A stretch of DNA of 64,000 nucleotides from Cymbomonas tetramitiformis (lineage: Eukaryota > Chlorophyta > Pyramimonadophyceae > Pyramimonadales > Pyramimonadaceae). The DNA is taken from positions 1 to 64,000 of the forward strand of contig LGRX02024820.1 in assembly GCA_001247695.2 (NCBI GenBank), read 5' to 3'. Position numbers and translations under genes: made by a program. The notes below the pieces were generated by a model. It saw only the letters and a list, made by a program, of their open reading frames with translations. It did not search any database and was not told the DNA's origin. Positions 7,476 through 44,657 of this stretch are shown in pieces (positions within the stretch are counted from its first letter, which is position 1; each line of letters opens with the position of its first letter).

Positions 7476-7821
7476 ATGGTTGCCGTCGCCTCATCTCCGA
7501 AACGGAAAATGCCAAATAGAGTCTTCAGAGAGCTGTCGACCTTGGGACTACTGTTTTGGAAACTACCGATTTTAACAAATGCCGGCTACATCACGATTCA
7601 TGAACATGCGGATGCAGGATGTGCAAGTCAGTCAGGTTCTTCCACTACGAGCTGCTCAAGCTTGAGTTCGTGTGCAAGCTGGGCACACAGCGCCTGTTCT
7701 TCCCAGATGTTTATGTATTCAAGTGGATATGCCACATCGTGGGGCACGAGGTGTTGCTCGTTGAATACTGATGCTGGTGGCTCTAGCAATTCAAATTGGG
7801 ATACTTATTCAGTCACAACAG
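7476..7821 (+). CDS. receptor exon 1: Cys/Ser-rich module (5' end uncertain)
   Basis: The frame is open from an ATG at 7476 to the donor GTAACT at 7822. An acceptor-like AG at 7616-7617 gives an alternative start for this exon. The reliable part, from about 7618, encodes a Ser- and Cys-rich module with about seven cysteines, Tyr and Trp, ending in Thr-Thr-Gly. The leading segment has a modest hydrophobic stretch (about residues 21-40) that is not a convincing signal peptide, so an upstream exon may be missing. It ends in phase 1, which fits the next exon exactly. Confidence 0.5.
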
Positions 7822-8326
7822 GTAACTTGCTTCTCTAGAAGGTTCCGATACAGCTCCGAGTTCATATGATAATGCGTATTCTTCAACGTACATGCGCATT
7901 TCTAAGTGCTCGACCGTCTTACAATTACTCTGTAAGCCATGGCGACCGCGGGGATGGTTTATCGTGTCTGTTGCTACTATGGTATTCTGATTTAATAAGT
8001 AATGTTCTCGATCACTACTAACGTGACGCGTGCAGTTGCTGCTAGGACCTTCCTCGATGTAACCCCCACTTACTCGCCAGCAACATTTTTGAACTGCCTA
8101 CGTGGCGTGGTAGTAGAACGAAAGTGGCACTCAGAGGAAGGTCCATCGCTCGTAATATTTCTTTTTACTTTTTGTTCAGTGTCTGCGGAACCATGGTGGA
8201 AATTCTGCGCGTGTTTGCCCTTCATAAAATCAGATGCTACGCGCGAGTTTTGAATATACAATGTTTTGTTTTCAGCGTGAAGGCTTCAGCGTGGTTGCTA
8301 TTTGAGTTGCGACGTTTCTGGCGCAG

Positions 8327-8518
8327 GTGCTTGCACGGCAGCTTATCCGTACGTTTACAGGCCCACAGAAAATTACGATTATTGTTGTTCTACTTGCGCC
8401 GATTTTAATGGAAACTCAAACATAAACTGCAACGCGGAATTGTCTGCGCGTGCAGCCTCTTGCAAAGACAACGACTATCAAGAATGTTCGAGCCCTCCGT
8501 GCTCAGACTGGGATGCAG
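8327..8518 (+). CDS. receptor exon 2: Cys-rich extracellular module
   Basis: A symmetrical phase 1-1 exon of 192 bases between an acceptor at 8325-8326 and donor GTAATC. The product has about nine cysteines, including CCSTC and a CSSPPC cluster, several Asn and Tyr, and no hydrophobic run, as expected of a small disulphide-bonded surface module. The family is not recognised. Confidence 0.6.
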
Positions 8519-8663
8519 GTAATCAAAGGCCGAAGTCTAATATTACTTTAAAAGTAGAAGTCGAGGAGTTTAAACTGGGTCAATGCAGTTACGGAGGGTC
8601 CAGAAACGTCACTTTTCGGCCAAAAACAAGTTAGGGTTTGGGTTTCCAACCTGGGTTCGTAGC

Positions 8664-8879
8664 ATGCGAACCGTCACAGGTATGAACGATCTGAAAAATA
8701 CGTATTTTTTTTCAGCTCAATTCCAGTTCACCGAAAGTGACGCTTTGGTGTCCGTTTTGCGATCGATGTCACGACTTCAAAATTTCGGTTCGAGTTTTAG
8801 GGATTGTTGCATCGAACTACAATTGAGCTGAAAAAAAATACGCACTTTTCAGAACGTGAATACCTGTAGCGGTTCGCAT
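8664..8879. repeat. foldback element with 59-bp arms
   Basis: The left arm 8664-8722 and right arm 8821-8879 are inverted copies matching at about 52 of 59 positions, around a 98-bp centre. Both arms include the run TATTTTTTTTCAGCTCAATT next to the centre. It lies in the intron after receptor exon 2 and is likely a MITE or foldback transposon. Confidence 0.85.
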
Positions 8880-9469
8880 TCTATGAACGCATACCTCAAG
8901 TGTTTTTTTGCAGTTTTCTATATATAATACAACTCTAACTTTCCAGGCCGTTTCTGGACCCTCCGTACCTGCAATGACCCAACTTCGGTGACTGGCACAT
9001 CACCAAACTATCACATATTTGAATGGAGGACACAAAATCACTTTGTTTCTTATCATCACTTTATTCATTTATATGCATATTCATTTTATATACATATACA
9101 TATACATATTTATTCATTTTACATTTCTGCGATCCTACTATCCACAATATCCAAACCGTGTAGAAGTGGGAACTCCTATATCAGGCTACGTTTTTAGTTA
9201 ATACCCGCCGGTCCTTTGAAACTTTACAAAGTCTGTTTGATGAGACTGTGGTACCTGTGTCACATTTCCACGAGTATTGACGGCGAAGCAGTTACTAAAC
9301 ATATTTATTTATTTCACATCAGGAACATAACGGTCCACTCATTAGCCAAATGGGCCGCAAGCATTTTAGTGGTTAAGTGTGCATATATATGTGCGAGCTT
9401 GGCGGCAATCACATGTGGCCTTAACTTTGCCTTGCCTGGTGTGGCTTGAAGCCGCCATCATATGCGGTT

Positions 9470-12768: not shown

Positions 12769-12781
12769 GGGAGTGTTACAG

Positions 12782-13321
12782 CCAAGACTGGATGTGTTGG
12801 TGGGTACTACAAACTTCTGGATGGTGACAGTACATATTCAAAATTTAGCCCTCAAGGTGCAAATACAGGAAATTGCCAAAGCGATTATGCAGATGGAGTT
12901 TTTCATTCGGAGGTGAGGTGGAGCAGACTAAAGATTGATATTGAGAACCTTCGGCTTGACGCACGGGACTGGGTGTTTGCTCGTCAAGTCTCTGGGTCGT
13001 ATTTATGTAAACTCGGACATGCAAAAGACTGTTATGGGTCTTACAGTAAGAGGGGCAAAGCCGTGATTGACTTGCGAGGAACACCACTCGCCATCACTCA
13101 GCCAGCAAGTTGCGCGTGCCAAGGTGCCAATCCTTGCCAGTGTGGACAGTGGGCTGGTAAAGGGTGGAACAATGCAGTTTCCGTAACGTGCACTGACAAC
13201 AACCAATACTGCATCGCTTCATGCGGTGGATATACTGGATATTGCCATCTACCAGAGCAATACCTACAGGTGGAAGTGCGGAGTGGATATGAGAGCGCAT
13301 TCCGGGCCGAATGCCCAACAG
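12782..13321 (+). CDS. receptor exon 3: GON-like domain
   Basis: A symmetrical phase 1-1 exon of exactly 180 codons. The product strongly resembles the GON domain at the C-terminus of ADAMTS9/20 and nematode GON-1. Blocks in order: YY-LLDGD, a DYADGVFHSEVRW strand leading to LKIDIENLRLD, an aromatic DWVFA, GHAKDCYGSYSKRGKAVIDL, RGTPLAI, and a closing CGGYTGYCH plus LQVEVR. Cysteines are plentiful, as in the animal domain. In animals the domain sits on secreted metalloproteases and is linked to cell migration and ER-to-Golgi transport; here no protease precedes it. The acceptor (TTACAG, ending 12,781) lies at the very edge of an intronic repeat copy, and two leading bases complete the codon left by exon 2. 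Assignment is by motif pattern; a search with Pfam GON would decide. Confidence 0.7.
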
Positions 13322-13739: not shown

Positions 13740-14373
13740 TGTCTCCCACTTCTTCCCCGACAACCACCTCACCAACGGTGCCTCCAACGACGGTGCATCC
13801 GACGACGGCGCCTACAACTAATTCTCCAACGATCCCGCCAACAACAGCGTCGCCATCCACACAGCACCCGACATCGGTGCACCCAACCAGTGTGCATCCC
13901 ACATCTGATGCTCCAACATTCTCCCCGACAGTATCACCCACAGGCTCGCCAACAACAGCCTCACCATCCACACATCACCCGACATCGGTGCACCCAACCA
14001 GTGTACATCCCACATCTGACGCTCCAACATTCCCTCCCCGACAGTATCACCCACAGGCTCACATCAACAACAGCGTCGCCATCCACACAGCACCCGACAT
14101 CGGTGCACCCAACCAGTGTGCATCCCACATCTGATGCTCCAACATTCTCCCCGACAGTATCACCCACAGGCTCGCCAACAACAGCCTCACCATCCACACA
14201 ACACCCGACATCGGTACATCCTACAACCTCACCCTCGACAACGCCACCCACCACTTCCCCAACGACTTTCTCACCAGCAACTTCCTCTCCAGTTACTACA
14301 CCTCCGACCACCCTCGTTCCAACCACAATCCTGCCTACTGTCTCCCCAAGTACAAACCATCCCTCAACAACAG
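13740..14373 (+). CDS. receptor exon 4: Thr/Ser/Pro-rich mucin-like stalk (frameshifted)
   Basis: Encodes a repetitive Thr-Ser-Pro-His stalk (units such as SPTTTSPTVPPTT and HPTSVHPTSDAPTFSPT), a likely O-glycosylated extended spacer. DNA units of about 120 bases repeat three times. Acceptor (ATATCAG) and donor (CAG/GTAGCA) are both phase 1, so the exon should be divisible by three, but it is 634 bases. The third unit carries two 2-base insertions (about 14,033 and 14,068), moving the frame by one in total. The upstream half reads correctly in one frame and the downstream half in another. This is either a sequence error, an allele, or a true break. The closing part is very Thr/Pro-rich and ends STTG at the donor. 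Confidence 0.6.
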
Positions 14374-15665: not shown

Positions 15666-15888
15666 GTCCAACAATCAGCCCGAGCACCGTTTACCCAACC
15701 ACATCCCCGGCAACAGTCAACCCAACACCTAGCCCCTCCGCCGTGCCAACAACGACTCCCCCTCCCCTCCTTCCCCTCCGCCGCCTCCTCCGCCTGCATC
15801 CCCTCCACCACCACATTCCCCTCCCCCTATTGTGTACGTCACTGCTAACAGTGGCAACAATGAGCAGTCCGTCGTCATCTACGACCAG
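15666..15888 (+). CDS. receptor exon 5: Pro-rich spacer and beta-strand segment (frameshifted)
   Basis: Starts in phase 1 after ACACAG with a Thr/Pro stalk (PTISPSTVYPTTSPATV) and ends in phase 0 at CAG/GTGAGC after an extended PPPASPPPPHSPPP tract and a strand-like tail (IVYVTANSGNNEQSVVIYDQ). Both ends look coding and match their neighbours in phase, but they sit in different frames. One indel in the C-rich run at about 15,745-15,785 is therefore needed. Such tracts are error-prone, so a sequencing slip is the simplest explanation. Confidence 0.5.
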
Positions 15889-17368: not shown

Positions 17369-18147
17369 GGAAGTGAGAATTCGACTTGCCTGCGCACAAT
17401 GTTTGATACGGTGATGAAGAACATGAATGTGCGCACAACCTCTGGGCCGACCTTCCTCTCGTGGATGGTGCGCTCCGAGGAGGTATGCACCAGCAGCGTG
17501 TGCTCGCTCGATCTCTGTGGCTTTACCGTTGGCACCTACGTCCTCAGCGGCGAGGTTTATTTCCAGGAATCGACGGGGATCCCGGCGAGCACGGTGTCTG
17601 GAGGCGTGATTGTCTATCACGGTCCGCCGCCACCCTCTCCGCCTCCGCCATCACCTCCTCCGCCGCCGCCGCCACCACCTCCAAGCCCACCACCTCCATC
17701 CCTCCGCCGCCTCCGCCGCCTCCGCCACCTCCGCCTCCACCCCTCCCCTCCACCTCCCCTAGTCCTCCCCCCACCGTCCCCACCACCTCCACCTCCTTCC
17801 CCACCCCCGGGAATGGTGAACGTGGAGGGTGTCAGCCTGACCCTCTCCTTCTCCACTCTGGATATTTCCTCGTTCAGCTCTCCGTCTTTCAACGCATCCT
17901 TTCGTGCAGAGTTCACGGAAAATATTGCAGCCGCAGCAGGCGTCCCCTTGGACGACGTCGATATCACAAGCATCGCCAGCGGAAGCGTCGAAGTCTCATC
18001 AACGGTCTCCTTTCCCTCCACCGCAACCTCAACGGCAGCCGAATTTCAGCTTGGCTTGGAGACGTCGCCCAACACGCTGCTCAACTTTTCCTCCGTTTAT
18101 GGTGATTTCAACGCCAGCTCCGTTTCTACTTCCAGATATGACAAAAT
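17369..18147 (+). CDS. receptor exon 6: unknown Cys module, Pro-rich spacer, SEA-like segment
   Basis: Begins in phase 0 after CGTACAG. Residues about 1-88 form a small Cys-containing module ending in the strand-like VSGGVIVYHG. Residues about 89-150 are an extended SPPPP spacer of the pherophorin/extensin kind. Residues about 152-255 (from GMVNVEGVSLTL) have alternating strands and helices, including TENIAAAAGVPLDDVDIT and VEVSSTVSF, similar to SEA or ferredoxin-like repeats found before EGF modules in algal and animal surface proteins. A proposed donor GTACTC at 18,148 in phase 2 joins exon 7 in frame. The alternative is that the following C/T tract is also coding, but the frame is then wrong for the EGF exon. 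Confidence 0.55.
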
Positions 18148-18473: not shown

Positions 18474-19109
18474 ACCACAATCATCCTCACTGTATACGCC
18501 ACCATCCCCTCATGTATTCACATATACACTGACACCTGCTTCACCCCAAACTTTGCCCCGCCCTGCTGTGACCCTTTCCCCGCCGAGAAGCCCCATCCCA
18601 AGCGTTCCATCCCAGAGCCCCACACTCTTAATCTCTTCACTAGGTTCTCAGCTACCCTCAGGCGCCGCCCTGCCCGAGCTGGCTGAGGGCTTCGACGACC
18701 TGGCGAGTACCTGGCATACTGTGGGGCGCCTAAATGCTCCCAATGCGTCCAGCTGCCCGCCCGGTTACAGGGGATCTGTCATATCAGGACAAGGGGAATA
18801 TGCTTGTGTGGACATCGACGAGTGTGCGGCAGGTGGCAATGGCGGTTGCAACTTCCTCCGTCAGTGTCGCAACACGCCAGGTGGCATGGAGTGTGGCCCC
18901 TGCCCTGCTGGATACGTCGGGACAGGCTTCCACGGATGCAGGGATATTGATGAGTGTGCCACCGCGGACCGTGGCGGCTGCGCTACACAAGCTAGGTGCA
19001 TCAACCTTGCAGGGGGGGTTACGTGCGGGCCGTGCGAGCCGTCGGAGCTATACCTGGGGGACGGCCGCGAGTGTCGGCGGTCGACAACATGTGGTGAGGA
19101 GAATGGCGG
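18474..19109 (+). CDS. receptor exon 7: Pro-rich leader and first EGF modules
   Basis: After a Ser/Pro-rich leader (about 70 residues) and a short helical patch (ALPELAEGFDDLASTW) come two calcium-binding EGF modules starting DIDEC (at about 18,815 and 18,946) and the first half of a third (STTCGEENGG). Their form is C..GPCP.GY.G.G..C, the thrombospondin/CRELD style. The donor GTGAGC is in phase 2 within the third module, and the next exon supplies the missing base and its first Cys. Confidence 0.8.
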
Positions 19110-19313: not shown

Positions 19314-21066
19314 ATGCGACCCACTCTCAGAGTGCCTGCCCACCGCGGGCCAGCAGGTGCGATGCGGCGGATGCCCGCACGGCATGAGCGGCACCGGCGC
19401 AACGAAATGCGTGGAGATCGACGGCTGCGCCAGCTCGCCCTGCTTCGAAGGCGTGGAATGTGCGGACGTCCCTGCCCCGGGCCTCGGCGCCGGGTGTGGG
19501 CGCTGCCCGGATGGATACGCTGGCGATGGCCGCACCTGCGAGCCTGAGCGCTGTCTACTGGAGCCCTACCCATGCAGCATGGACCCGCCTGTCGCCTGCT
19601 CGACGATCCAGGGGGGCGGTTACACTTGTGGGAGCTGCCCGGAGGGGTACCTTGGTGATGGCGTGTCCTGCAGGGATGTGGATGAGTGCACTGTGCAAAA
19701 TGGAGGCTGTGATTCGCTGAGCCAATGCATCAATCAACCTGGGGGCCGCTCCTGCGGGAGCTGCCCGGAGGGGTACCTTGGCAGTGGTGACTCCAAGTGC
19801 CGGCAGCGAACACCATCCTGCGTGCTTGCCAATGGCGGCTGCGACCTGCTGGCCACCTGCACCGATACAGAGGCCGGAGCCGAGTGCGGTGCCTGCCCAG
19901 AGGGTTATGACGGGGACGGTGTGACGTCATGCACAACCGCCTCCGAGGACGAAAGTAGGTGTGGACCCTCCGCATGTTATCCTGGGGTGCGCTGCGAGGC
20001 TGCCCTTGCACCAGCGGTCGGTGAGGAAAGAAGTGTGGGCGCCCTTTCCCCCGAGCCGTATCGATGTGGCGCCTGCCCGGTCGGCTTCGTGGGTGACGGC
20101 ATCAGCTGCACTGTCGACCGCTGCTTCTGGAGAAACGGCGGGTGCGACCCTGCTGTGAGCTGCTTCAACGACGCCGCCTCTCCCTCGGGCCGGGTATGTG
20201 GAGCCTGCCCCATTGGGTTCGTGGACACATCCACGGAGCTTGACGTCACGCGCTGTGAGGACGCAGATGGCTGCCTCGCTGCCCCCTGCCTGCCTGAGAG
20301 GGAGTGCGTGGACGTGGCGGCGGCAGAGGAGGCGGCGCTAGGGGTTGCATTCTCATGCGGGCCTTGCCCTGATGGTTATGCGTTGGTTGGAGACCGCTGC
20401 CAGGACCTAGACGAATGTGCTCAGGCACCAAACGGCTTATGCTGGGAGGCACCAGACGGCTCCGCACGGTCAGAGTGTGTGAACCTCCCTGGAGGATATG
20501 CATGTGGGAGTTGCCCCTCCGACATGCGTGGTTCCGGAGCGGCTGGCTGCGTCCCCGTCACAAACTGCTCCGTTGACAACGGTGGTTGTTGGGCGGACGC
20601 CCCCTGCACAGAGACTGCGAGTGGCTCTGAATGCGGGGCGTGCCCATTGCACTTCGAGGGAGATGGGCACATCGGGTGCACCGAGGGTGATGGATGCGTG
20701 CCAGGGTCTTGCTTTCCTGGGGTGGAGTGCATGGATGTGCGTGCCCCGGGGGTGGGATACACCTGCGGTGCGTGCCCGGAGGGTTACTGGGGAGATGGAA
20801 GGGAGTGCACCTTGTGCCGGATGCGCGTTGGCATCGAGTACACCACCGCGGTGGACGGCGCGGTGAAGCGCGCCGGGTGGCACCGTGCGGAGTACGAGGT
20901 CATAGGAGGACTTAACGAGGGGCTCGATAGCAGCGAGTGTGTGAACCATCTTGGGACACGGTTCTGGTGGAGCGGGGCAAGATCGGACGGGTCGGTGCTG
21001 GTGCTGGACGCGGACAAGAACAAGGCGGACACACTAACGCTCAATTTGCCGAAGGCAGATCTGACG
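19314..21066 (+). CDS. receptor exon 8: ten further EGF modules and start of REJ
   Basis: A long exon (phase 2 to 0) completing EGF module 3 and adding modules 4 to 13. Nearly all follow C.{5-9}C.{4-7}C.+CG.CP.GY.GDG..C; modules starting DVDEC and DLDEC should bind calcium. Several (CFPGVECMDV, CYPGVRCEAA) closely recall the second EGF module of thrombospondins. One module near 19,960-20,110 has a longer insert. After the last Cys pair at about 20,810-20,818 the chain becomes non-EGF (MRVGIEYTTAVDGAVKRAGW) and leads into the REJ region. High GC and strong codon bias set it apart from its introns. Role inferred: extracellular rod binding ligands or neighbouring cells. Confidence 0.88.
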
Positions 21067-21388: not shown

Positions 21389-22009
21389 GTGGGAATCAGC
21401 TACACGTTCCGCCTCTCCGCCTCGCTGTGGGGGAACCGTGAGGTGACCGCCACCGCCACCACCACGTTCTTTGTGAAGTCGATGCCTCTGGTGTTGACCG
21501 TGCGGGGAGGCGACTTGACCACCGGGGAGGCTTCCCCCATCACGCTAGACGCATCGGACAGCGTGGACCCGGACGGCGCGCCAGGTGCCATCGTCTTTAC
21601 ATGGCGCTGTTCTTCGGAGGCGCCCGCTGCTGGGGGATGCCGCTACCCCAACGGCACCGCGCTGCCGGCGCTGATGCATGGTGCGGAGGTGACGCTGAGG
21701 CTCGCGGGCCCTGATGGGGACACCGGCGAGCGCAACTACCGCTTTGCGCTCAGCGGCACCAAGGGAGGCCGTCGCACGGACCTCCAGACATGGGTGAGCA
21801 TCATATCTGGGGGGCCTCCGGTGCCGAGCATCACCCCGATTCTGGACAGCGTCAACCCCCAGGAGCTGCTGCGTCTGCGGGGCTCGGCCTCTGCAATCGA
21901 TCCTGCGTCGCTGGAGTATGAGGTGCGCCCGATCTCTTCAGCTTTGGGGATGCCAGGGGCCCACCTTCTCACTGCAAGTGGAGCAGGCGCGCGCGTCAGC
22001 ATCCAGGGG
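21389..22009 (+). CDS. receptor exon 9: REJ domain, first part
   Basis: A phase 0-0 exon of 207 codons. Reads VGISYTFRLSASLWG, then PLVLTVRGGD, an SGSS-like DASDSVDPDG, and FTWRCSS with a Cys pair, the layout of the receptor-for-egg-jelly (REJ) module of polycystin-1 relatives: Ig-like strands followed by a Cys-containing tryptophan strand. It closes with LEYEVRPIS. The donor is taken at GGG/GTGTCT; the exact end is uncertain by a few codons. Confidence 0.75.
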
Positions 22010-22463
22010 GTGTCTTGCCGCCGGGCCTCGCTGAGATGAACACCAGCGGTCATGCGCCGCCAATGAATGTTGGATGCCGTCTTCAAGCAAGGACGCCTGA
22101 GGCTAGCAGGCGTGTGAGGTACCCTGAGCTGTGCACCTTGCCTCTGGGATGCCGCATCAGCATGGGCCCAGCTCTTGCACAACGGGGTATGAGCATCGAA
22201 CTCAGGCTGCAAGTAGACTTCGCTGTATCAATGCTCGGTCGCTCCTGTGCTGGGTGCCTTCCTCAGAATTGGCTTTGTCAAATCGCGCCGTCCACACACA
22301 CCGCATTTGACGAATGGTACGCTCCTGGGGCCCTCGTTGCGCAAGGCACTTTCCGCTGAGGGGTCGCAGATTCGGTGGGCGTCCGTTGAGCAAACACTTC
22401 GGAATGGGCTGAGCCGGGCGGGAGTTGAGGGGATGGCGAGGTGCGCAGTGGACGGCGATTGAG

Positions 22464-22778
22464 GAGCGCAGCACTCAGGCTCTTGAGCTCACCACTGGCG
22501 CGGGCGGTACCCTGTCGAGCGCAAGCCGGTTTACGTCAAGCCTGACAGTGCGGAGGCGGGTGCTGGAAGGGGGCGGAGAGTACACCTTGCAGCTGGCAGC
22601 GCGCGACAGCACTGGGACCGGGGCTGCGCGGATCACCGTGCGGATCAACACTCCGCCTGTTGGGGGCTGGGCCGCAGCAAGTCCGGGCACCGGGAGAGCA
22701 TACTCCGACCCCTTTGTGCTGTCAGCGCCTGGGTGGACGGACGAGGATGTTCCCCTGTGGTACCAGTTTGCGTGCCAG
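22464..22778 (+). CDS. receptor exon 10: REJ domain, second part
   Basis: Encodes SLTVRRRVLEGGGEYTLQLA, AARITVRINTPPVGG, and the very typical REJ block SAPGWTDEDVPLWYQFACQ. The donor GTAAGA at 22,779 is strong and in phase 0. The acceptor may be the AG at 22,462-22,463 or that at 22,477-22,478; both are in phase 0. Confidence 0.8.
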
Positions 22779-22952: not shown

Positions 22953-23249
22953 GTAGCCGGACCGACGGCAGCACCGGTGGTGCTACAGGACTTCGTTCCG
23001 CGGCCCGGCCCGGTGACGACTCTGATGCCAGTGGAAGGCCTAGAGCTGCATGACCACAAAGTAGTTGTGCTGATCACAATCCGGGACAGCCTGGGCGCTA
23101 CCGCCACCGCTTTTGTAGACATTGCCGCCCCACCTCCGGATGGTGGTGCAAATGTGAGTGGCGTCAATGTGAGTGCGCGTGTCGCAAGGCTCACTGAAAG
23201 CGCTGCAGAGGATTTGCGGAACGGGAAAACAGAAGCCGCGTTAGTGCAG
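22953..23249 (+). CDS. receptor exon 11: REJ domain, third part
   Basis: Phase 0-0, 99 codons. Continues the REJ fold with LMPVEGLELHDHKVVVLITI and RDSLGATATAFVDI, then an amphipathic helix (RLTESAAEDLRNGKTEAAL) that starts the all-helical region before the GAIN domain. Confidence 0.75.
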
Positions 23250-24046: not shown

Positions 24047-24484
24047 GTTGAAGCAGCGACGAGCAACCTCCTGGGCGCAAGTGAGGCAACGACCCAGCCC
24101 AGTCAGTACCAGGAGCTGCTACGGCTCGTTGCAGGGGTGAAGGCGGCCACTGCGTCCACGTACTCTGCTGTGGAACGACTGGCAGGCACGCTGCGTCGGG
24201 TCACGCTGCGCCCTGAGGCGCTTGGCGCAGCGGCTGAGGCGCAAGCCATGACACTGCTGAGGGGCCTAGTGGAGGACACAACTGCGACCCCGCTCGAAGC
24301 ACCGCTCTCGGCAGGCGCCGCGCAAGCGATCTGTGATGGGCTGGCGGCCTTGAGCCACAAGCGGGAACGTACACGAGCGGAGGAGGTTGCAGAAGTGATG
24401 GCGCAGATGGCCCGCTCCATGGTGTACGAGGCCACCACTGGCGAAGAGGGCGCTGAAGTGATGGGGAAAGGGTTGGCGATGAAG
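24047..24484 (+). CDS. receptor exon 12: helical region before GAIN
   Basis: Phase 0-0, 146 codons, from VEAATSNLLG to MGKGLAMK. Almost wholly amphipathic Ala/Leu/Glu helices (LLRLVAGVKAATASTYSAVERLAG, then VAEVMAQMARSMVYEA). In polycystin-1 and adhesion receptors a helical subdomain begins the GAIN fold, so this is probably GAIN subdomain A. Confidence 0.65.
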
Positions 24485-24796: not shown

Positions 24797-25172
24797 GTGA
24801 TGCGGGGCATGGCGTCGGATGTGCGGTCGACGCTTTATACAGCTCCGATGATCACTGCAGGCGCCGCAGTGAGCTTTCCAGAAACGCTCGCCTCGCTGGC
24901 AATGGCGCTGGCTGCCACTGACACTAGTCCACCTTGCAGTCGGAGCGCCAGCCAGGAGGACTGCGGGGGGAGGCACACTGATGCAGTGCAGATGGAGGTG
25001 GATGCAAGGGTTATGGCGAGCGAGGCAGATCCTCACAGCGTCTCTCCGGACCCACACGCCTCAGCGGTCATCACCATCACGCTCAGCGACCCGGAGACGG
25101 GAGCGGAAGTGACAGTTCGGGAGTTGAGCGAAGCTATCACATTTACTCTCGAGCTACAGGCCTCCAGCACCG
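24797..25172 (+). CDS. receptor exon 13: GAIN region
   Basis: Phase 0 to 1. Starts VMRGMASDVRSTLY after TAATTAG, with helices and a disordered Cys-containing insert, then strands such as SAVITITLSD and EAITFTLEL. These strands belong to the beta-rich half of a GAIN domain. The donor is CACCG/GTGAGG; two bases of exon 14 complete the Gly codon. Confidence 0.7.
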
Positions 25173-25960: not shown

Positions 25961-26087
25961 CCGGCTCAACTCCTGTGCTTGCCATCCTTGAAACCTTTGA
26001 TGGATGGGTGAGGAGGTGGGAAGGTGCCTGGGGACGGCCTTGGTGTAGATATTCACCGGCCCCGCATGCCTGCGCGCAAACCAGCAG

Positions 26088-27419: not shown

Positions 27420-28544
27420 GAAGAGGAAATTCATCGCTACCGAATGCAAAGGAGGCTGAAGCTACAGAGGGGCGGTAATTGTCTACTGCAGAACATGAGG
27501 CTCCTGACAAAGGCGAATAAGCTGTATGACGTCGGCAAGCTCCAGCTCACCGCCACGGATGCAAGCGCAATGGATGGTGAAGGGTTGGTGGTTGGTGCGG
27601 ATGTGGGGATGGATGCGGGTGATTTCCCCAAAGAGACACGCCCGGAGCACAGGTGGGGTCTGATGCAGGGCGTCCTCGATGGCTCTCTCCGGGCATGGAC
27701 CGGAAGGCGGGTACTGCTGCGCCACCCGCAGGGCGCTGGGCTCTCCCCAACACGCCGCTTGCTCCCTGTTCCCACTGCAGCAGCACGCCTTTCGTGGGCG
27801 GCGGGAGCGGCTCTCCCCAAAAGGGTACTGGGCAGCGCTGAGCAACCAGGCGCCGCACAGTCTCCGCGATGTACTACTCAGGCGCCACAGGAGGCCGATG
27901 CGGGAGAGAGCAGCCGCACCGACGCTGCTAGCGGCGACTCGCAGGAGGTCACCCCTGAGGAGACCGCCCGAGAGCGCCTGGGTCTAGGAAGCCTCACAGG
28001 GAGCCCGGTGGTGGAGGGGCAGGGCCTGGGGGTGGTCGGAGCAACTGCTGGGATGACGCCAAGCTTGAGAGAACGGCATGCGCTCCTGGCCACCGGCTCG
28101 GCGTCACACAGAATGGTTGCGACCCAGGTGGATCAGGCTGCCGCCTGCAATCCCAAGTTGGCATCCCCGCTGGTGACCGCCGGCTGCGTGCTGGAGAACT
28201 TCCAACCAAAGGAGGATCAGGGGCCGGCACTGCCCACGGAGTCATCCCGCAGGCCGCCGCAGCAGTCAGCCCTGGGGCTGCCGCCTGGTGCGGGCGAGGA
28301 GCTGGAGGCGCAGGACAGCATTCAGGACATCCCACAGGCCACGGCGCACCTGCCAGCGTCGTCTGCGGTGGTCCACTTCGCTGCCTCAAATAGGGAGGAG
28401 AGCCAGCCCGGCTTCGAGGAGCCCGAAATAAGCATACGGATCATGCCACCCACTGCTGCCACGTCAGCACCCATCCGACATCCCAGGCGGAAGAAGAAGG
28501 CCCCCTCGAAGAAAGCCTCCCATCCGTCCGATCCTGCTCGACGG
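27420..28544 (+). CDS. receptor exon 17: long cytoplasmic linker
   Basis: Phase 0 start after TTTCTTCAG with EEEIHRYRMQRRLKLQRGGN. About 375 codons, mostly low-complexity Pro/Ala/Gly/Ser with acidic patches and a basic cluster near the end (RKKKAPSKK). Few hydrophobic stretches are present, so it is likely disordered and cytosolic. The donor is ambiguous: GTGATG at 28,545 or GTATTG at 28,593, both in phase 0. Antisense frames across it reflect GC bias only. Confidence 0.6.
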
Positions 28545-29015
28545 GTGATGGAGCCCGGCGCCAGCCTCGCACTTGGCCTGGGGTCCATCTGGGTATTGTG
28601 CTCACCTCCCCCGCCCCCCTTGCACCTCTCTGCTCCTGCTCCTCGGCTCCAGCTGCCTCGGCATGCGCCCCTGGGAGTCAGCAATGGCAGCCCTCTGCCA
28701 AAATGATGAGCCATTTATCGGACATGTGAAAAGCGGAACACCGACCAATCATAGCCCCCAGGGCCCCACGCGGACCTTCACCCAAGGTTCCGCCCCACGC
28801 CACTCCATGTGAGTATGAGCAGCCAATCGCAAGACATCTGCCCCAAATTGTGCAGAGCGGCCAGTTGATGTGCCTGCAGCGTAGAACCAATGGGGCATCT
28901 GAGCTTCCCTCTCTCCGGCCTCCTTCGTTTTGTTGGTGTTGCCTGCTGATCCCTTCACCTCCCGCTCCCCGCAACGCCCTTCCCATCTCCAATATCTGGT
29001 TTTATTTTGACACAG

Positions 29016-29357
29016 GCACCAAGCGGACCTCATCAGGGGCGCCGAGGCGCAGGCAGCGACCCGATGGTGATGACTAGTGCCTACATTCCGACTGATGGCA
29101 AAAAGATCCCCGCGCTGCCCTTCCAGCAGCTCCTCACCGACATGGCATTGTGGGAGCGGTCTGCGGATGCTCAAGTAGATAGTCCGCAAAATCCAACGGT
29201 GCAACTTGGAGGTCCATCCGACAGCAAATGGGACTCGAGGGGCGCAACGTCCCCGGGACGGCCTAATCTCCCTGGCGCGTCCCCCGACGCGAGGCCGCTG
29301 CTGCGATCATTGAGCATGCATCCGGATCGGCGAAAGCGGCTGTGCGTCCGCTTGAAG
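29016..29357 (+). CDS. receptor exon 18: linker continuation
   Basis: Phase 0-0, 114 codons after GACACAG. Contains SAYIPTDGKKIPALPFQQLL and LTDMALWERS, then a disordered Ser/Pro stretch and a basic end (RRKRLCVRLK) at AAG/GTCCGT. No known domain. Confidence 0.6.
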
Positions 29358-29766
29358 GTCCGTTCCAAGTCATTGCGCTCTGCTCTCCCATAGGTAGAGG
29401 CGATCAGTGCCGTTAACGCAGGGTGAGGTACCGCTACGCTTATAGAGGGTTGGACGTGTCCATTGAGGGGGGCAGGCAACCATGCGGAGGCTTTCCTGGA
29501 TAGCCCGCGGCTCCCCGTGGTGCGTCTAGGTGATCCGGAGTCCATCAAGAGCGAAATGTGCCAACGTGGCATGTAGCTCATGCCGCAAGGCTGCCGCGTG
29601 CTCAGTGGCTGCCGCGCCTTCTCCCCGGGGGCACTGCTGGGGACGGGGTAGTCGCACGCACGGGAAGAGGGGCAGGGGGTATGGGGAAACGTTCATCGGA
29701 TGCCCCCATCGTGATGGCTGCTTTAGGCGTGAGCGGGGCGCTGTGGGTTGGGGGATGTGGCACAAG

Positions 29767-31821: not shown

Positions 31822-31974
31822 GCGGCAGATGCTACAACACCTCACATCTGGATGCTTCGTGGCCGGGGTGAGGAGGGTGTGCAGAATGCCCAGCCCGAGA
31901 ATCTTGAGCGCATGATTGGCACGGCCGCCGTCCTGGCTTATCTGCAGATCACACACACGGTGAAAGAAGAGCAG
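31822..31974 (+). CDS. receptor exon 21: helical segment
   Basis: Ends at GAGCAG/GTGATG in phase 0; the acceptor is weak. Encodes NLERMIGTAAVLAYLQITH and TVKEEQ, a helix typical of the cytosolic part in this receptor type. Upstream coding sequence to about 31,789 is possible. Confidence 0.5.
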
Positions 31975-32399
31975 GTGATGCCCAACAGACCTCCCGGCCG
32001 GTCTCCCTTCCGATGCTGCAATCTTCTCCTCGATGCGCGCTTGCTGACATCGTTCGTGAGCAGCTTTATCTAGACACGTTATGCTGTGAAGTCCTTGTGC
32101 ACGCAAGCTGCCACCAGTGCATGCTGCGCCAGGTGCCTGCACCGAGATGAAATCAGGCATTGCTGCAAAAGACCGAAGAACACACGCACAGTCCGCAATC
32201 GGGCGTGTGCAAAACTGCAGCGCCCCCAGGAGCTGTGGCATTTCCCTCATGCATATTAGGTACGCATGAGTAAAATGGTGTGTGTGTGTGAATGGGTTTG
32301 CACATTTTATTGGTGACAGTACTCATGAAAACAGTACGCACCGAAAAAGCTGCCGTCGTGCCCTGCTCGGAGGATCAAACCATTGCACACACTGTTAGT

Positions 32400-35586: not shown

Positions 35587-35905
35587 GCAGAGCGGGTGAA
35601 GGCAGGGCGGCTGGGGCGGGGGTACGTGGGGCGCGCTCAGATTCAGAACCAGATCACTCTGCAGCGGCTGGCCTCGTGGGAGATGAAGCACCAGGACTTT
35701 GAGTGGTATCTGCGGGCATTCCGCATCCTGCTGAGCCCCGATCACCAGCGACGTGGCTGGTACTTAAAATGCAGCATGTGGAACCTCTTGTTTCTGCAGC
35801 GGCGCGACGGCTCCTTCGGCCTCACCGCCGCCCTGGCCACCACGCTCTGCGCTGGGGACTGCACCTCGCTCCTCACCACAAACCCCACTGGTCCTGGCCC
35901 CCACT
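35587..35905 (+). CDS. receptor exon 22: cytosolic helical domain
   Basis: Starts in phase 0 after GTTGCAG. Encodes AERVKAGRLGRGYVGRAQI, SWEMKHQDFEWYLRAFRILL, then WNLLFLQRRDGSFGLTAALA and TTLCAGD. The pattern W..L..LQ..DGSF.LT..LA with a following helix is shared by large algal and protist receptors and recalls the C-terminal region of vault PARP/VIT-type proteins. The 3' end is uncertain; a phase 0 donor GTCACC at about 35,911 is one option. Confidence 0.6.
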
Positions 35906-36199
35906 TCGCAGTCACCCCTCCACCCTGATCGATGTTGGCTAATCGGGCGCACAGTCTGAACTGAGTGCGTGTATGGAAGGTGCCACACCTGCCTGCTGGA
36001 TGACCAGACCTTGCATTGATTGCCACTTCAGGTGGTCTCGGCAGAGGCTTGCAGCAAGGTGCGCAGTTATCAGCTGTAGATGCATCGGCTCAAGCCAGCG
36101 CTCCAGCTGAGAGGGGGGACCTTCGAGTCAACTGACGGATAAAGTAATTTGCGGGGAGGTGGGGAGGGGAGGGGACTGGGCGGATGTCACGCAGCCCAG

Positions 36200-36454
36200 T
36201 TAGACCCGGCTGTGTTTAAGGCCTCCATGCCGCATTCCCTTCTTGCCCACTTTGCAGGGGAGCGGCAGGAGGAGGATTGGGAGGACGCAGAGGATAGGGA
36301 GGAGGAGGCATGCGCCGTGTGGGCAACTCTGTGCGTCATAGAGCGGTGCCGCTCGCTACCATTCCAGTGGGTTGTCAACCCCGAAAGCCCCCCTGAGGCC
36401 CGGCACAGTATCAGCAGCCTCGCTGCAGCATTCATTTCACGGGCTGCTGAGCAG
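36200..36454 (+). CDS. receptor exon 23: cytosolic helical domain, continued
   Basis: Phase 0-0, 85 codons between GCCCAG and CAG/GTGCGA. Reads LDPAVFKASMPHSLLAHFA, an acidic run, then VWATLCVIERCRSLPFQWVV and a closing helix. It looks like the second half of the domain begun in exon 22 (DGSF...WATL..L). Confidence 0.65.
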
Positions 36455-36907
36455 GTGCGAATCCTGCTCGAATAGATCTGCCCAAGCACCCTCTGTTCGC
36501 CGTTCCCAATCTCTCCTCTTGCCATCCGCCCCCACCCTCTTCGTGCCTATCTGAGTCGAAGGTGCGCTCGCCTGAAGTCTGGACAGCCGCAACAATCTCG
36601 GCAGGCATTTGGATTGTAACCATCCAATCAGCACCGCGCATTCGTGCATGTGCGCATACTGTGTCGGCCATCGAATATTGGTGATCCGGTCTGATTCTCT
36701 GAGAATGATGCGGCGGTGGATAAGCACACGCATGGGTTTTTATGGATTGAATTTCGGAGGGGTCGCCATCTGTTAGTTTTAGGTTTGTGTACCCAGCTGT
36801 AATCCCTGTATGCGTCACCCTGATTGATGAAGGCCTGCTGCAGGGTCACCCCTTGCAGAGGGCCTTTAGTGAGCCGCCTTGTAAGATGTGCGGCACGATC
36901 CACACAG

Positions 36908-37120
36908 GCGGGCCTGACGGAGGACGACCTGGAAGCATGGAGGCGCCAAGCAGCGGACCAGGTGCAGCAGTGGATCCACGGGCGTTTGGAGGTTATTCGA
37001 GCGCTTCAATGGGCGGCAACGTCCGAACAGGTCGCCATGCAAGATCTGAACGGGAGCACGTTCTCAGAGCCAAGCATCTCGGTCCGTGAGCGCCGCATCC
37101 AGTCCTTCCAGAAGCTTCAG
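36908..37120 (+). CDS. receptor exon 24: amphipathic helices before membrane region
   Basis: Phase 0-0, 71 codons. LTEDDLEAWRRQAADQVQQW and EVIRALQWAATSEQ form helices, closing with VRERRIQSFQKLQ. It leads directly into the HPW motif of the next exon. Confidence 0.65.
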
Positions 37121-37364: not shown

Positions 37365-37517
37365 GAGGTGGGCAAGACAATCTTAAACAGCCACCCCTGG
37401 ATGATGATTTTTGTGGTGAAGAAGGAGGAACCATACACACGCTCGCAACGTATTATGCTCCAGGGCACCAGTATTCTGCTCATGCTTTTCGTATGCTTGG
37501 CCATCTTCTACTCTAAG
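37365..37517 (+). CDS. receptor exon 25: polycystin-1-like HPW / EPYTRSQR signature and membrane helix
   Basis: Phase 0-0, 51 codons: EVGKTILNSHPWMMIFVV, then KKEEPYTRSQRIMLQGTS, then a membrane helix ILLMLFVCLAIFYSK. The string H.W..IF....  ..(F/Y)TR.QR followed by a helix is the best sign of polycystin-1 relationship in the window; animal polycystin-1 proteins carry H.W.S.F... S.FTR.QR at the same place, just after PLAT. Confidence 0.8.
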
Positions 37518-37768: not shown

Positions 37769-37951
37769 GCGTCCACCTGCTGCGCGGAGTTCCGTGAGGC
37801 AGTTGGCTGCAGCGCGGACGAGGAGAGTTGCCTAGATCATGACAAATGCGCCAGCCTGATGGAGTCGGACCAGTTCCAATGTGATGACTTCACTTGCGAG
37901 CCCTCTGAGCCGCTCCTGCCACACGGCTATATCTGCACAGCTTTTCCCCAA
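37769..37951 (+). CDS. receptor exon 26: extracellular Cys-rich loop
   Basis: Phase 0-0, 61 codons after GCATGCAG. Begins ASTCCAEFREAVGCSADEES and holds eight cysteines with many Asp/Glu. Between two membrane helices it is probably the first extracellular loop (the polycystin/TOP domain position), here small and disulphide-rich. Confidence 0.65.
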
Positions 37952-38916: not shown

Positions 38917-39021
38917 TCAACCTTGGCTCACCGCTGCTGGACGGCACTTTTGGTGGTAGTTGCTGTACTTCCATTGAACGTGGTGTTGTCCTCGGTGTTC
39001 ATCGCTGGAGGCACCTACCAA
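38917..39021 (+). CDS. receptor exon 27: membrane helix
   Basis: Phase 0-0, 35 codons: RCWTALLVVVAVLPLNVVLS then SVFIAGGTYQ. A clear membrane-spanning helix ending in PLN, as seen in later helices of polycystin-1-like proteins. The donor is CAA/GTGGGT. Confidence 0.7.
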
Positions 39022-41272
39022 GTGGGTCCCACCCCCCACCCCAAGTTGCTTCTCCATCTTTCAATTCGTGTTGCTGAAAAGTTTCCCCACTCTACGCGCC
39101 ATTCCGCTTCTCCTTGCAGTGGCACAAACTCATGGCCTCCACTAAAGCTTGTTCCGCATGCGCCCACGCCGTTGCTCTCTTCTGCGCAATGAGGCCGCCT
39201 TCCCTTCAAGACGCTGTGCATGCATAGTTAGTGCCCCATGCCTGGCGACCGGGCATGCAATTGGAGACAATCGAAGTGACAAAGCAGTACGGACCTCGGC
39301 AGCTCAGATCTACATGGTTGAGCAGATTTCCTCCGACACCTCCCCTGAGCGCTTCCTCGGCAGCTCCTCCAGAGCAGCGACAGCAAGGTTGATGTACTGC
39401 CTGGAGAGACGTGCTGCGCAGTGTCAAATGGTTACTGCGCACTAACAGAAGCACTACGGATAGGCCAAGGCGGATGGGTGGGGTGGAGGGTTTATGGAAT
39501 CTGTGAATGTTCCCGTGTTTGTACTGCTTACTCCATTTGTCTGTATACTGTTTGATGACATTTTCGATATTAAAGAGAGCATTTCGGATGCGGAAAACAC
39601 GAGCGTATTTTCGGCTTGACACTTGGTGGGCTCCATCTATTGCAGTGGGATCAAGGGAGGAGGGACAAGATGCATACATCCCTGCGGGCCACAGACAGGA
39701 TGGCCATTCAGTCTCGCTTCATTGATAGCGGCCCTTTAATGCGCAAGCTCGGAAAATTGGACATCCTTTTCCAATCAAATATGAGGCAGACGATGACGTC
39801 GGAGGCAAGGCGCACAGCTCGCACTTCAAGACTAGGGCGATAGGTCGAGCGAGAGACTCCCGGAAACGTCCACCAATCAACAGAGGGGTAATGTTGTTCA
39901 TGCGGACAGGTGTCAAAACACTGGGTCTCCGGAGGGGCGCGCAAAGCCAGAAAGGTGGGCCTCTTCTGGCATGATCAGCTCCTAATCCACTGCCCCCTTG
40001 AGAATTGCAAATCACAATTCTAGTGGTCCCCGGCCTTCTCCTGCCTGCCTGGCATACCCCTCCGGCAAAGCTGCCTCGTCGTCATCCGACAGTGCTTGGG
40101 TTGGGCTACATGCGGATTTCTCCCGTGGGGGCATCAAGCAGCTGCCTCCAGCTGTGGGCTCAAACCTCGGACCCTAGGTCTTAAGCTCCGAGGTCCCTAG
40201 GGACCATATGCCAGGCAACCCAAGGTCCGTGGGGTATCACACCTATCCAACGGGAGTTGCCCGGCCTGAGAGACGCCGCTGGCCGATTTTGGGTTCATCC
40301 GGCGGCATCTAAGGGTCGTAGGCTCAACGCTGATATTACTGTTACATTATATAAATGCTAGGCCACAGCTGAGACACTCTTGTAGTGGGCCGCCTTGAGA
40401 CACTCTTGTAGTGGGCCGCCTTGAGGCACTCATCTGTAGTTGTTGCCACTGTTGGGATGTACTATATTGATATTGTGGGTCACATTTCTTATTTGATGTG
40501 ATGTGTTGATATTGTGGGGCAATTTTGTGATGCTGTATATTGATATTGTGGGCCACATTTCTTCTGTAAAGTGATGTATTGATATTATGGGCCACATTTC
40601 TTATTTGAATTCATGAATTGATATTGCAGGCCATTTTTGTGATGTGGTGTATTGATATTTCGGGCCACATTTCTTCTGTAAAGTGATGTATTGATATTGT
40701 GGGCCAATTTTCTTATGTGATGTGATTCATTGATATTATGGCCCACTTTTCTTATTTGATGTGATGTATTGATGGTGTGGGCCACTTTTCTTATGTGATG
40801 CGATGTATAGATGTTGTGGGCCACTTTTCTTATGGGATGTTATATACAGATGTTATGGGCCACTAATGTGATTATATATTATATATATACATAAATAGCG
40901 GGCCACTTATGTAATATTATATATATATATACAACGTATATAAATATAGTGGGCCACTGTTGTGATGTGATATATTGATATTGCGGGCCACTTTTGATTT
41001 GCGTTGTATTGATAATTTGGGCCACTTGTTTTATGTGATGTCTATGATTGATTGATGTTGTCGGCCACTTTTCTTATGTGATGTCATGTATTGATATTGT
41101 GGGCCACTGTTGTTCTGGCACCCTATCAGAGGATGTAGTGATCAGATGGGGTCACAGTGTAGTGCACTAGGGGGGGGTTCAATTGAACCACGGTGGCTAC
41201 CATCCATCTTGAATGCGATTTGATTGCTCAGAAGGAAGGGCAATGAGTGACACATTGGGGCATGTGCGGCAG
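39022..41272. other. intronic region with a possible small membrane exon
   Basis: A frame from 39,494 to about 39,619 reads VPVFVLLTPFVCILFDDIFD and looks like a membrane helix, but lacks convincing splice sites. Another frame at about 39,300-39,430 (LMYCLERRAAQ) is weaker. From 40,370 the region is repeat. Confidence 0.3.
40370..41115. repeat. degenerate minisatellite with GTGGGCCAC core
   Basis: More than twelve irregular copies of TTGATATTGTGGGCCACTTT with spacers TTCTTATGTGATGTGATGTA, and an AT dinucleotide patch at 40,870-40,940. It starts with two copies of a TAGTGGGCCGCCTTGAGACA unit. Confidence 0.9.
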
Positions 41273-41493
41273 TTGCTAGGCGTCAGCCCCACAGTCGCCC
41301 TGGAGAACATCGTCTTTATTATTTACACATTCCTCTTTGATCAACGTCGCCTAAGCCGCTCTCTTGCACGTCTTTTCCACGTGGTGCTCTACATCATGGA
41401 TGGTTCCCTCCTGCTGTTGCGCCGCCTGGGCACCAAGCTTTATGTCCTTCAGCGCCGCGCCCGCCTCGGCTTGCGCTTTGTGATTGCCACTAG
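41273..41493 (+). CDS. receptor exon 28: membrane helix and basic loop
   Basis: VSPTVALENIVFIIYTFLFD is a membrane or re-entrant segment, followed by a helical Leu/Arg-rich chain (LARLFHVVLYIMDGSLLLL, then RRLGTKLYVLQRRARLGLRF). The end AG/GTGCGT is in phase 2, which fits the next small exon. The frame is open upstream to about 41,217, so the start could be earlier. Confidence 0.6.
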
Positions 41494-41589
41494 GTGCGTT
41501 CTTCGTGTGGCACTAAGCTGCGTGAAAATGACCTGTCTCGTCAAAACGTATGGTCTCACATGGAGAAAGTGCCCTGGAACCTGGAAATG

Positions 41590-43555: not shown

Positions 43556-43685
43556 TTAGTGAAGCGGTTTGGACTTGCCTTGCTTCTGCATGCTTGTCTC
43601 AGGCACTGGAGTGGTCCTCAGCTGGTGTCAGTTGGTGTACCTCGTACCTTTTTTGCTGAGAGATGCTTGTAGTTGTCGATAACAG

Positions 43686-43767
43686 GGTGCACAGGCAATC
43701 AGCTAAAGATGTACGATTTGCCTTTGAAGTAGAGCGGAAGGTAGAGCATATGCGAAGGCTTGAAAAG
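43686..43767 (+). CDS. receptor exon 29: small basic exon
   Basis: An 82-base exon between GATAACAG and AAAAG/GTTCTG. Its single leading base completes the phase 2 Arg codon of exon 28, and 27 codons follow to a phase 0 end: VHRQSAKDVRFAFEVERKV then EHMRRLEK. The charged helix fits a cytosolic loop between membrane segments. Too short to stand out by length alone; the exact phase fit on both sides supports it. Confidence 0.6.
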
Positions 43768-43976
43768 GTTCTGACTATCTGACGGCCCAGATGCCTCCTG
43801 GATCCAGCTGCTTGTGCCGAATACCCTCAATCATGAAGTGCATGTTGCCATCCGTGATGCGAGAGCTCATATGCACAGATCCCCCCACGTATCCGTTCAC
43901 CTATTCGTGCATGCTGTTTTCTCCTTACCCACGTACCATCCTAACTGATTAGCACAAGGTTTTTTTCTTTATGCAG

Positions 43977-44219
43977 ATGGACTTGCCATGGTACAAGTGG
44001 AGATCACTGATAGCAGTGGGGAAGGGGGTTTGCATGCCCAATCAGAGCATGGCGGATGCTATCTTCGACCAGGCGCGAACTGAGATGGACAGTTCCCTAG
44101 TCCAGGGCTGCTACATTATGCTGGTGCTCTTCTGGGGGGCATTGTCATATCTCCTGATCGCTTACGGAGCGCTGATCCGAAACTCCATGGGATCGAACAC
44201 TGAAAGGACGGTGCTTCAG
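43977..44219 (+). CDS. receptor exon 30: cytosolic loop and membrane helix
   Basis: A very good acceptor (pyrimidine run then TATGCAG) and donor CAG/GTACCT, phase 0-0, 81 codons. MDLPWYKWRSLIAVGKGVC and an acidic helix lead to a strong membrane helix (CYIMLVLFWGALSYLLIAYG) and RNSMGSNTER. Resembles a later helix of the polycystin-1-like region. Confidence 0.8.
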
Positions 44220-44396
44220 GTACCTACTTCCATAAGCATGTCACTATAGAATTCAACAACCTAGTTTCCTTTCATGGCTCTCCAATTGTACTAGAACAGA
44301 AGCCTGGGTAGCATACAAATTGGAATGCATATATTTTACCGCGGCCGTCCATTAGTTGCGCAAGTGGTTGAGCAGCAAGGATGTGTTGTTGCGCAG

Positions 44397-44657
44397 GCGT
44401 GGATTGTGACACTCCTCGTCGACAATGTGATCCTGCAAGTAGTGAGAAATTTAACTATTAAGGTGTGGGTCAAGTCCCTGGTCCAGAACTTGCGACAGCA
44501 GCTAAGACTATCAGAGGAAGAGCATCTGACATTGTGGTATGAGGATTACATGCGCACCAAGCTATCTTCCATATATACATTATCAGGCCTTGGAGAAGAT
44601 GATGATGACCAGAATCGTGCTATCGAATATGATGTGGCTGGAATGGCGTTTATTTGA
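44397..44657 (+). CDS. receptor exon 31: last membrane helix and C-terminus
   Basis: Starts in phase 0 after TTGCGCAG. AWIVTLLVDNVILQVVRNL is a membrane segment; KVWVKSLVQNLRQQLRLS follows, then an acidic tail (GLGEDDDDQNRAIEYDVAG) and a TGA at 44,655. In related algal proteins the last helix is followed by a similar short basic then acidic tail. A further 3' exon is possible if a donor precedes the stop. Confidence 0.65.
   Translation, partial: AWIVTLLVDNVILQVVRNLTIKVWVKSLVQNLRQQLRLSEEEHLTLWYEDYMRTKLSSIYTLSGLGEDDDDQNRAIEYDVAGMAFI

Follow-up and report, generated by a model that had tools for sequence, protein, structure and literature searches.

We analysed a window of 64,000 nucleotides (contig LGRX02024820.1, positions 1 to 64,000; hereafter C16084:1-64000) within the 851.7-Mb assembly, in 25,745 contigs, of Cymbomonas tetramitiformis, a pyramimonadalean green alga and phagotrophic prasinophyte that eats bacteria (PMC5741210); a hybrid Nanopore/Illumina assembly of 914.3 Mb has been described for Cymbomonas (PMC10675990). 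On the plus strand, from approximately 7.6 to 44.66 kb, lies a single multi-exon locus with repeat-rich introns. Its modules follow one another in a fixed order: two Cys-rich modules, GON, a mucin-like and proline-rich stalk, LCGF, a SEA-like domain, 13 EGF modules, REJ, a GAIN-like region that includes a GPS, a first transmembrane segment (TM1), an extended loop, and some five more hydrophobic segments (“LCGF” and “SEA-like” are labels coined in this analysis). We propose, with a probability of about 0.7, that one large multi-exon nuclear gene here encodes a modular cell-surface receptor extending from GON to TM5. The proposal is built on the modules, their order, their collinearity with long paralogs and the conservation of that order at three loci; a single transcript presumably spans the distance from GON to TM5. 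An earlier reading made from the letters of the window (the sequence-only reading) had described such a receptor in a probable green alga, and the architecture it saw stands, with the corrections given below.

Order of GON and REJ across loci

The GON exon of the window (12782..13321, plus strand, 540 bp, phase 1-1) contains a match to Pfam PF08685 at 12853-13278 with an E-value of 1.9e-13 (51.2 bits; gathering cut-off 22.6). The match spans positions 73-199 of the 199-position profile. The full-length domain (1-199) was not found, even with exons A and B (the two Cys-rich modules) spliced on, and because the match stays at 73-199 after this splicing, we take the module to be the C-terminal two thirds of the domain. 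A random 540-bp stretch of the local base composition has a chance of 0.0011 of being stop-free in one frame. REJ (PF02010) matches two exons of the locus (1.5e-13 and 1.9e-16) and, over the spliced sister protein P0001 (CYMTET_40248), reaches 4.9e-42. GON and REJ, both named in the sequence-only reading, are thus real by the profile check.

A search of the genome for GON (11 of 11 first-look candidates scored) gave eight matches above the cut-off, on contigs C16084, C17757, C2913 and C25663; none of 14 control genomes had a match. In all eight cases a REJ gene of the family follows downstream in the same orientation; three independent loci are involved, together with a sister haplotype of the window locus. 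That haplotype, C17757, matches the window piecewise from 7417 to 30433 at approximately 97-99%, ends in the loop after TM1, and is either the sister haplotype or a copy of very recent origin. Its GON exon is open (546 bp), and its introns carry approximately 5.7 and 14.5 kb of extra sequence absent from the window (9100-10457 region).

The two other loci are diverged. The GON of C2913 is 45% identical to that of the window (42.2 bits; exon 516 bp, phase 1-1) and is followed, all on the plus strand, by FG-GAP repeats, a mucin stalk, LCGF, a SEA-like domain, a second LCGF, EGFs, REJ, GAIN/GPS, TM1, the loop, TM2, and TM3 onwards. The FG-GAP repeats between GON and the stalk (L015:2664-3446) match Pfam at 3.8e-53, and one open frame holds mucin-like, proline-rich and LCGF sequence. 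On the minus strand of C25663 (examined at 40001-150000), five GON copies and four A modules occur among leucine-rich-repeat (LRR) and laminin-G-like open reading frames (ORFs), and 38 weak LCGF matches (E ≤ 0.05) run from 99 to 52 kb. After LCGF come one EGF, REJ, GAIN, the GPS insert described below, TM1, loop, TM2 and TM3, on the same strand as GON, with the nearest GON approximately 57 kb before REJ. Viewed as a whole, C25663:40001-150000 (L019-L029) appears to be a giant minus-strand locus of approximately 100 kb with many Cys-rich and mucin modules.

The order shared with these two diverged paralogous loci supports, at the level of sequence comparison, the placement of GON and REJ in one gene. 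The same link had been drawn earlier from matching exon phases. Exons A, B and GON are indeed symmetric (1-1), whereas the mucin exon of the window has a net +1 (it is 1-1 in the sister haplotype); moreover, the phases of A, B and GON are weak on their own, because their splice sites were picked by eye with phase in view.

The locus does not stand alone: 114 REJ matches were counted on at least 93 contigs, with haplotypes uncollapsed and 93 of the 282 candidates scored. C16084, C2913 and C25663 are missing from this list, so the figure of 93 is a minimum, and it counts contigs rather than genes. The open frames around several of the matches are very long (up to 7,153 residues), and none of 14 control genomes had a REJ match. 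Cymbomonas thus has a large, apparently undescribed family of probable REJ receptors.

Exons and modules of the locus

With the assembled EGF-to-TM5 product as query, 12 proteins were found at E ≤ 0.001 among the best 7,985 candidates scored. The closest, P0001, is 95% identical to the assembled product and comes from Cymbomonas tetramitiformis itself, in keeping with the green alga suspected earlier. Six further relatives are from Cymbomonas: P0002 (CYMTET_8794), P0004 (CYMTET_10221), P0005 (CYMTET_42451), P0007 (CYMTET_16864), P0008 (CYMTET_14134) and P0009 (CYMTET_19689). The remainder are the EukProt models P0003 and P0006, the JGI proteins P0010 and P0012, and Pythium P0011. By tblastn with these 12 relatives, the exons are collinear on the plus strand from 17.4 to 44.2 kb, which bears out the single order on one strand that had been claimed: LCGF at 17.37, SEA-like at 17.8, EGF at 18.65-21.07, REJ at 21.35-23.25, GAIN at 24.05-25.17, GPS at 25.25-26.2, TM1 at 26.7, loop at 27.4-36.5, TM2 at 37.4, a Cys-rich segment at 37.8, a membrane segment at 41.3 and TM4 at 44.1 kb. 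A home-made splice scorer recovered most exons from EGF to TM1, and its doubtful exons past 29 kb were replaced by paralog alignments. Pfam was run on 10 single ORFs of the window, then on 10 further ORFs and on spliced pieces; the 10 further ORFs had no match up to E 1. Outside two frame slips in the stalk, weighed in the next section, the translated exons contain no stop in the correct frame.

All coordinates below are plus-strand positions in the window unless stated otherwise. Exon A (7618..7821, 204 bp, phase 1-1), delimited by its splice sites, is a Cys-rich module with no Pfam family match and with relatives 50-52% identical on C25663. Exon B (8327..8518, 192 bp, phase 1-1), the second Cys-rich module, does not differ between the haplotypes. 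The gene itself begins further upstream than exon A. A 179-bp satellite occupies 5640-6847 on that side, and an interspersed repeat family recurs in the introns at 10.9-12.7 and 33.2-34.4 kb, one copy ending just 5' of the GON exon.

Database searches with GON found no protein at E ≤ 0.1 among 1,922 and 378 candidates (proteins of approximately 292-928 and 889-2,830 residues), and among solved structures searched by sequence only one antibody chain appeared (E 0.38). Between the haplotypes, the GON exon has six nonsynonymous and no synonymous codon changes in 180 codons, plus an in-frame 6-bp insertion or deletion. The corresponding figures for 16 further exon pieces totalling 2,457 codons are 23 nonsynonymous and 12 synonymous changes (p = 0.012 for the rate, p = 0.16 for the ratio). 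Given this ratio, and one loop exon that alone has 13 nonsynonymous and 4 synonymous changes, we do not claim diversifying selection on GON.

The stalk comprises a mucin-like Ser/Thr/Pro exon (13740..14373), a second mucin/proline-rich exon (15666..15888), and the Cys-containing LCGF module with a PPSPPPP linker behind it (17369..17605; tblastn with P0004 and P0009, splice sites). It continues with the SEA-like stalk domain of the paralogs (17816..18101; tblastn with P0005, P0007 and P0009), whose likeness to SEA was judged by eye only. EGF exon 1 (18652..19109) matches Pfam cEGF (7e-8) and EGF_CA (1.9e-7) and shares 75 identical residues with P0001; EGF exon 2 (19314..21066), which runs into the start of REJ, matches EGF_3 (1.3e-14) and is 98.6% identical to P0001. 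Counting by eye in the translations gives 13 EGF modules, the number reported earlier. Together, the mucin and EGF modules resemble a stalk. REJ itself is spread over exons a (21389..21922; Pfam 1.5e-13), b (22449..22778; 1.9e-16) and c (22953..23249), the last placed by tblastn with P0001 and having a Pfam match of its own of only E 0.19.

The GAIN-like region follows in two parts. The helical part (24047..24484) is 100% identical to P0001, and in the family profile it aligns by hhalign to the Pythium REJ-GPS protein P0011 at E 2.1e-9. The strand-rich part (24797..25172), placed by tblastn, has a weak profile match to chains of adhesion G-protein-coupled receptors (GPCRs): against the PDB, the GAIN-region profile found such chains in five of six rows up to E 10, none of them significant (best 0.23). 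Foldseek and VIA-align, run on the structural model of this region, returned mostly designed or repeat-type helical proteins, from which we draw no evidence of fold; the GAIN structure 4dlo, at Foldseek rank 37 (E 0.14), was likewise left unused.

The GPS is split. Its first half, CTFWN...YSTTGC, is joined to a family-specific insert ending in GCWWNWTHQ (25249..25661), and its second half, CYCTHLTDF, carries a canonical HL/T site (26049..26204; motif and tblastn with P0001). The insert, of approximately 90-110 residues, is present in all nine relatives with both motifs (P0001, P0002 and P0004-P0010, of which P0005 and P0006 are near copies). In these nine the first Cys of C-x-F/Y-W stands 123-145 residues from HLT, against 33 in the outsiders Pythium P0011 and JGI P0012. 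The conserved pattern of the insert is W..Y.G.DAG.RKY...C.L...CWW.W, and its end is a second C-x-x-W-like motif that, with C-x-C-THL/TDF, would also give near-normal GPS spacing. HLTDF is found in 9 of the 10 Cymbomonas-type proteins P0001-P0010 (the P0003 model does not include that stretch), and the GON-bearing paralog on C2913 has both HLTDF and the insert. Pfam GPS has no match in P0001, the window ORFs or the spliced pieces, the GPS halves lying approximately 110 residues more than usual from each other; six relatives (P0002-P0006, P0008) have sub-threshold matches. The GPS, said earlier to look intact, is not plainly so: its motifs and HL/T site are there, but a family-wide insert interrupts it.

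Beyond the GPS, one exon encodes TM1 and the start of the cytoplasmic loop (26692..26961, tblastn). The loop then continues through a main exon (27464..28590; 91% to P0001, borders approximate), an exon at 29016..29378 (95% to P0001) and two exons at 29764-29901 and 30346-30432 (tblastn), where both contig C17757 and P0001 end. A short exon follows at 31888..31977 (tblastn with P0002, E 0.003, and P0003, E 1.7e-4). Three more loop exons lie within 35626..37120: those at 35626-35890 and 36258-36454 are placed by tblastn with P0002, P0003 and P0004, and that at 36908-37120 by splice sites and an open frame only. TM2, with a YTRSQRI motif, is at 37365..37517 (tblastn with P0002, P0004, P0005 and P0008; hydropathy), and between it and TM3 lies a Cys-rich segment (37769..37951; tblastn with P0002). 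TM3 (38917..39021) is placed by hydropathy, splice sites, position and motif only; a 43-bp minisatellite occupies 38106-38707 between the TM2 and TM3 exons. A further membrane segment (41255..41506; tblastn with P0002, E 7e-5) and TM4 (43977..44219; tblastn with P0002, P0005 and P0006, hydropathy) precede the last exon (44366..44657), which encodes TM5 and an acidic tail, has its stop at 44655-44657, and is placed by hydropathy, splice sites, open frame and position only. Hydropathy flags four stretches (TM2, TM3, TM4 and the last exon); TM1 (peak 1.66) and the 41.3-kb segment (peak 1.70) are moderately hydrophobic and were assigned by homology, for a total of about six.

The receptor had been called polycystin-1-like, a description that fits only its REJ, its GAIN/GPS region and, weakly, a motif in TM2. 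PLAT and PKD_channel, which the sequence-only reading had itself named as checks, have no Pfam match: for PLAT there is none in P0005, P0008 and the assembled part from TM1 to the end (up to E 10) or in P0002 and P0004 (up to 0.1), and for PKD_channel none in the same assembled part and four relatives. We therefore reject both a PLAT domain and a polycystin channel towards the C-terminus. Pfam 7TM likewise has no match in the membrane part, and the TM alignment found no solved structure by sequence.

Elsewhere in the window, a RecQ-type helicase ORF (DEAD, Helicase_C, RecQ_Zn_bind) occupies 427-1863 on the minus strand. A retroelement-like ORF (by eye) at 59866-62235, also on the minus strand, has a C-terminal PCIF1_WW match (E 3.5e-12), an unusual combination, and adjoins an RNase H ORF at 57922-59664.

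Alternative readings, mechanism and role

Several observations weigh against the proposed receptor gene or parts of it. Both haplotypes slip out of frame in a C-rich tract at approximately 15.7 kb, so that translation continued from GON ends at approximately 15.89 kb. The mucin exon of the window carries a slip of its own: at 634 bp it exceeds its open, 1-1 counterpart in the sister haplotype (408 bp) by two 111-bp units and 4 bases, a net +1. The mucin tract of C2913 changes frame too. GC content at third codon positions (GC3) is 0.45, 0.46 and 0.42 in A, B and GON against 0.54-0.86 from LCGF to TM4 (the SEA-like exon left out), so these three exons are perhaps late gains, or part of another gene; the last exon, at 0.49, is near them. 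No protein joining GON to REJ was found in the database searches described above, and the NCBI model P0001, labelled partial, begins within the EGF array. The structural assignments have their own difficulties. The top PDB row of the GAIN-region profile is an unrelated secretion protein (E 0.068), and the hhalign alignment of the TM region to Pythium P0011 is not significant, covering only the 32-residue TM2 motif (probability 1.8%, E 0.028). The AlphaFold models are too poor to support the putative GAIN and TM folds (mean predicted local distance difference test score 46.7 for the GAIN region of P0001 and 45.3 for the TM region of P0005). Lastly, the GPS site on C25663 reads CLCVNLP in an open frame, with the insert and without HL/T, so cleavage is not general to GON-bearing members.

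Part of this could be accommodated by two neighbouring genes, one coding for a secreted A-B-GON-mucin protein that ends at approximately 15.9 kb, the other for an EGF-REJ-GPS-TM receptor that begins at LCGF or later. Read on past the slip, the frame of the mucin exons reaches that stop in either haplotype, GC3 differs between the two parts, and P0001 starts in the EGFs. A conserved pair of neighbours could also give the pattern seen at the other loci, and for that reason we keep two genes as an alternative, although an improbable one: the same-strand order of GON, stalk and REJ recurs on C2913 and C25663, with all eight GON matches in agreement, and on C2913 mucin-like, proline-rich and LCGF sequence lie in a single open frame. 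If instead both breaks in the stalk are real, the net +1 of the window's mucin exon as well as the 15.7-kb slip common to the two haplotypes, the locus might be a decaying gene or pseudogene. Both slips fall in Ser/Thr/Pro repeats or C runs, where hybrid Nanopore assemblies are weakest, and the assembly described in PMC10675990 is of that kind. The sister haplotype has an open mucin exon, and the other translated exons have no stop in the right frame. We therefore consider decay very improbable; the stalk slips may come from misassembly of low-complexity tracts or from splicing that escaped detection.

For the single receptor gene, it is tempting to sketch a mechanism, in which cleavage, force sensing, ligand and signalling are all conjectural and which we rate at somewhat below even odds. 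The tip modules would bind a ligand on a particle, a prey cell or a partner cell, and the stalk and EGF array would transmit tension to REJ and GAIN. Cleavage at HL/T would take place as the protein folds, with the halves remaining associated; such a cut is expected by analogy, since polycystin-1 and SpREJ3 are cut at the GPS and their halves stay together (PMC1934368). Force or binding might then move or expose the new N-terminus (TDFQAKEAE...) and alter the membrane part, and the loop or a separate partner might signal inward. Since neither a channel nor PLAT was found, the membrane part probably acts via its long loop or via a partner, e.g., a separate polycystin-2-like channel.

The function would be adhesion or force sensing, perhaps prey recognition. 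The feeding role is a guess from cell biology, and its main rival is a role of the same architecture in mating or gamete recognition, as proposed for the sea urchin REJ proteins and the Ectocarpus REJ-GPS protein. We regard mating as rather unlikely: a large family fits a broad recognition repertoire at least equally, and the 2015 Cymbomonas genome paper treats feeding, the words gamete and meiosis being absent from its main text (PMC5741210).

More broadly, although we rate this as rather less likely than not, a phagotrophic green alga may have used exon shuffling to build, independently, an animal-like repertoire of modular GPS receptors. Modules such as GON, FG-GAP, LRR, laminin-G-like, mucin and EGF would have been placed before a conserved REJ-GAIN-TM core on at least 93 contigs, for recognition of prey or partners, with the GPS insert tuning cleavage or the response to force. 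At least some of these modules are on symmetric phase-1 exons. Modular receptors with shuffled phase-1 exons and a self-cleaving GPS are usually told as an animal story. A bacteria-eating green alga with a large family of such proteins, some of them GON-tipped, would show this module toolkit to be separable from animal multicellularity. The family also offers concrete candidates for the lineage-specific parts of phagocytosis left open by the 2015 genome paper (PMC5741210), and the GPS with its insert is a natural variant useful for the study of cleavage.

The sequence-only reading knew of no description of this architecture, and we likewise found none in the open-licence literature, although one may exist elsewhere. 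The words EGF and polycystin are absent from the main texts of PMC10675990 and of the 2015 Cymbomonas genome paper (PMC5741210), and titles in the GON-domain literature are mostly on ADAMTS proteases or animal tissues.

Comparison with known receptors

The nearest comparison is within Cymbomonas. The paralogs P0002, P0004, P0005, P0007, P0008 and P0009 share with the locus the EGF modules, REJ and a GPS interrupted by the same insert, and P0002, P0004, P0005 and P0008 also have TM1, the loop, and TM2 onwards. They differ in that none of the six models has GON (precomputed Pfam; own scans of five); the models P0004, P0005 and P0008 begin inside the mucin stalk.

The SpREJ/PKD1 proteins, of which there are five in humans and ten in sea urchin, resemble the locus in their REJ domain, a large extracellular part and a GPS before TM1, which in the locus is putative, and SpREJ1 has one EGF (PMC1934368). 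PLAT/LH2 follows TM1 in all five human and in 5 of the 10 sea urchin members (PMC1934368), whereas in the Cymbomonas locus neither PLAT, nor a channel (11 TM segments in some members), nor a C-type lectin was detected. The locus in turn adds GON, a mucin stalk and 13 EGFs, and its GPS has the family-wide insert. Ectocarpus Esi0130_0068 also combines REJ and GPS in an alga, and 6-7 TM segments are predicted for it; it is, however, only 1,427 amino acids long, and its reported features are limited to REJ, a GPS and, inside REJ, a channel match, with no EGF or GON (PMC4700764).

Polycystin-1 itself has been reviewed as an atypical adhesion GPCR (PMC13197933). The likeness of the Cymbomonas locus to adhesion GPCRs consists of a putative GPS with an HL/T site and the weak, non-significant profile match of its GAIN region; the difference is a membrane part to which Pfam 7TM does not match.

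In ADAMTS9/20 and C. elegans GON-1, GON is the C-terminal domain of a secreted metalloprotease. Among human proteins, GON is listed as exclusive to those of the extracellular matrix (PMC4224354). The Cymbomonas locus shares with these proteases the C-terminal two thirds of the GON domain, but no protease was found in the window ORFs searched, and GON lies instead near the N-terminus of a putative membrane protein.

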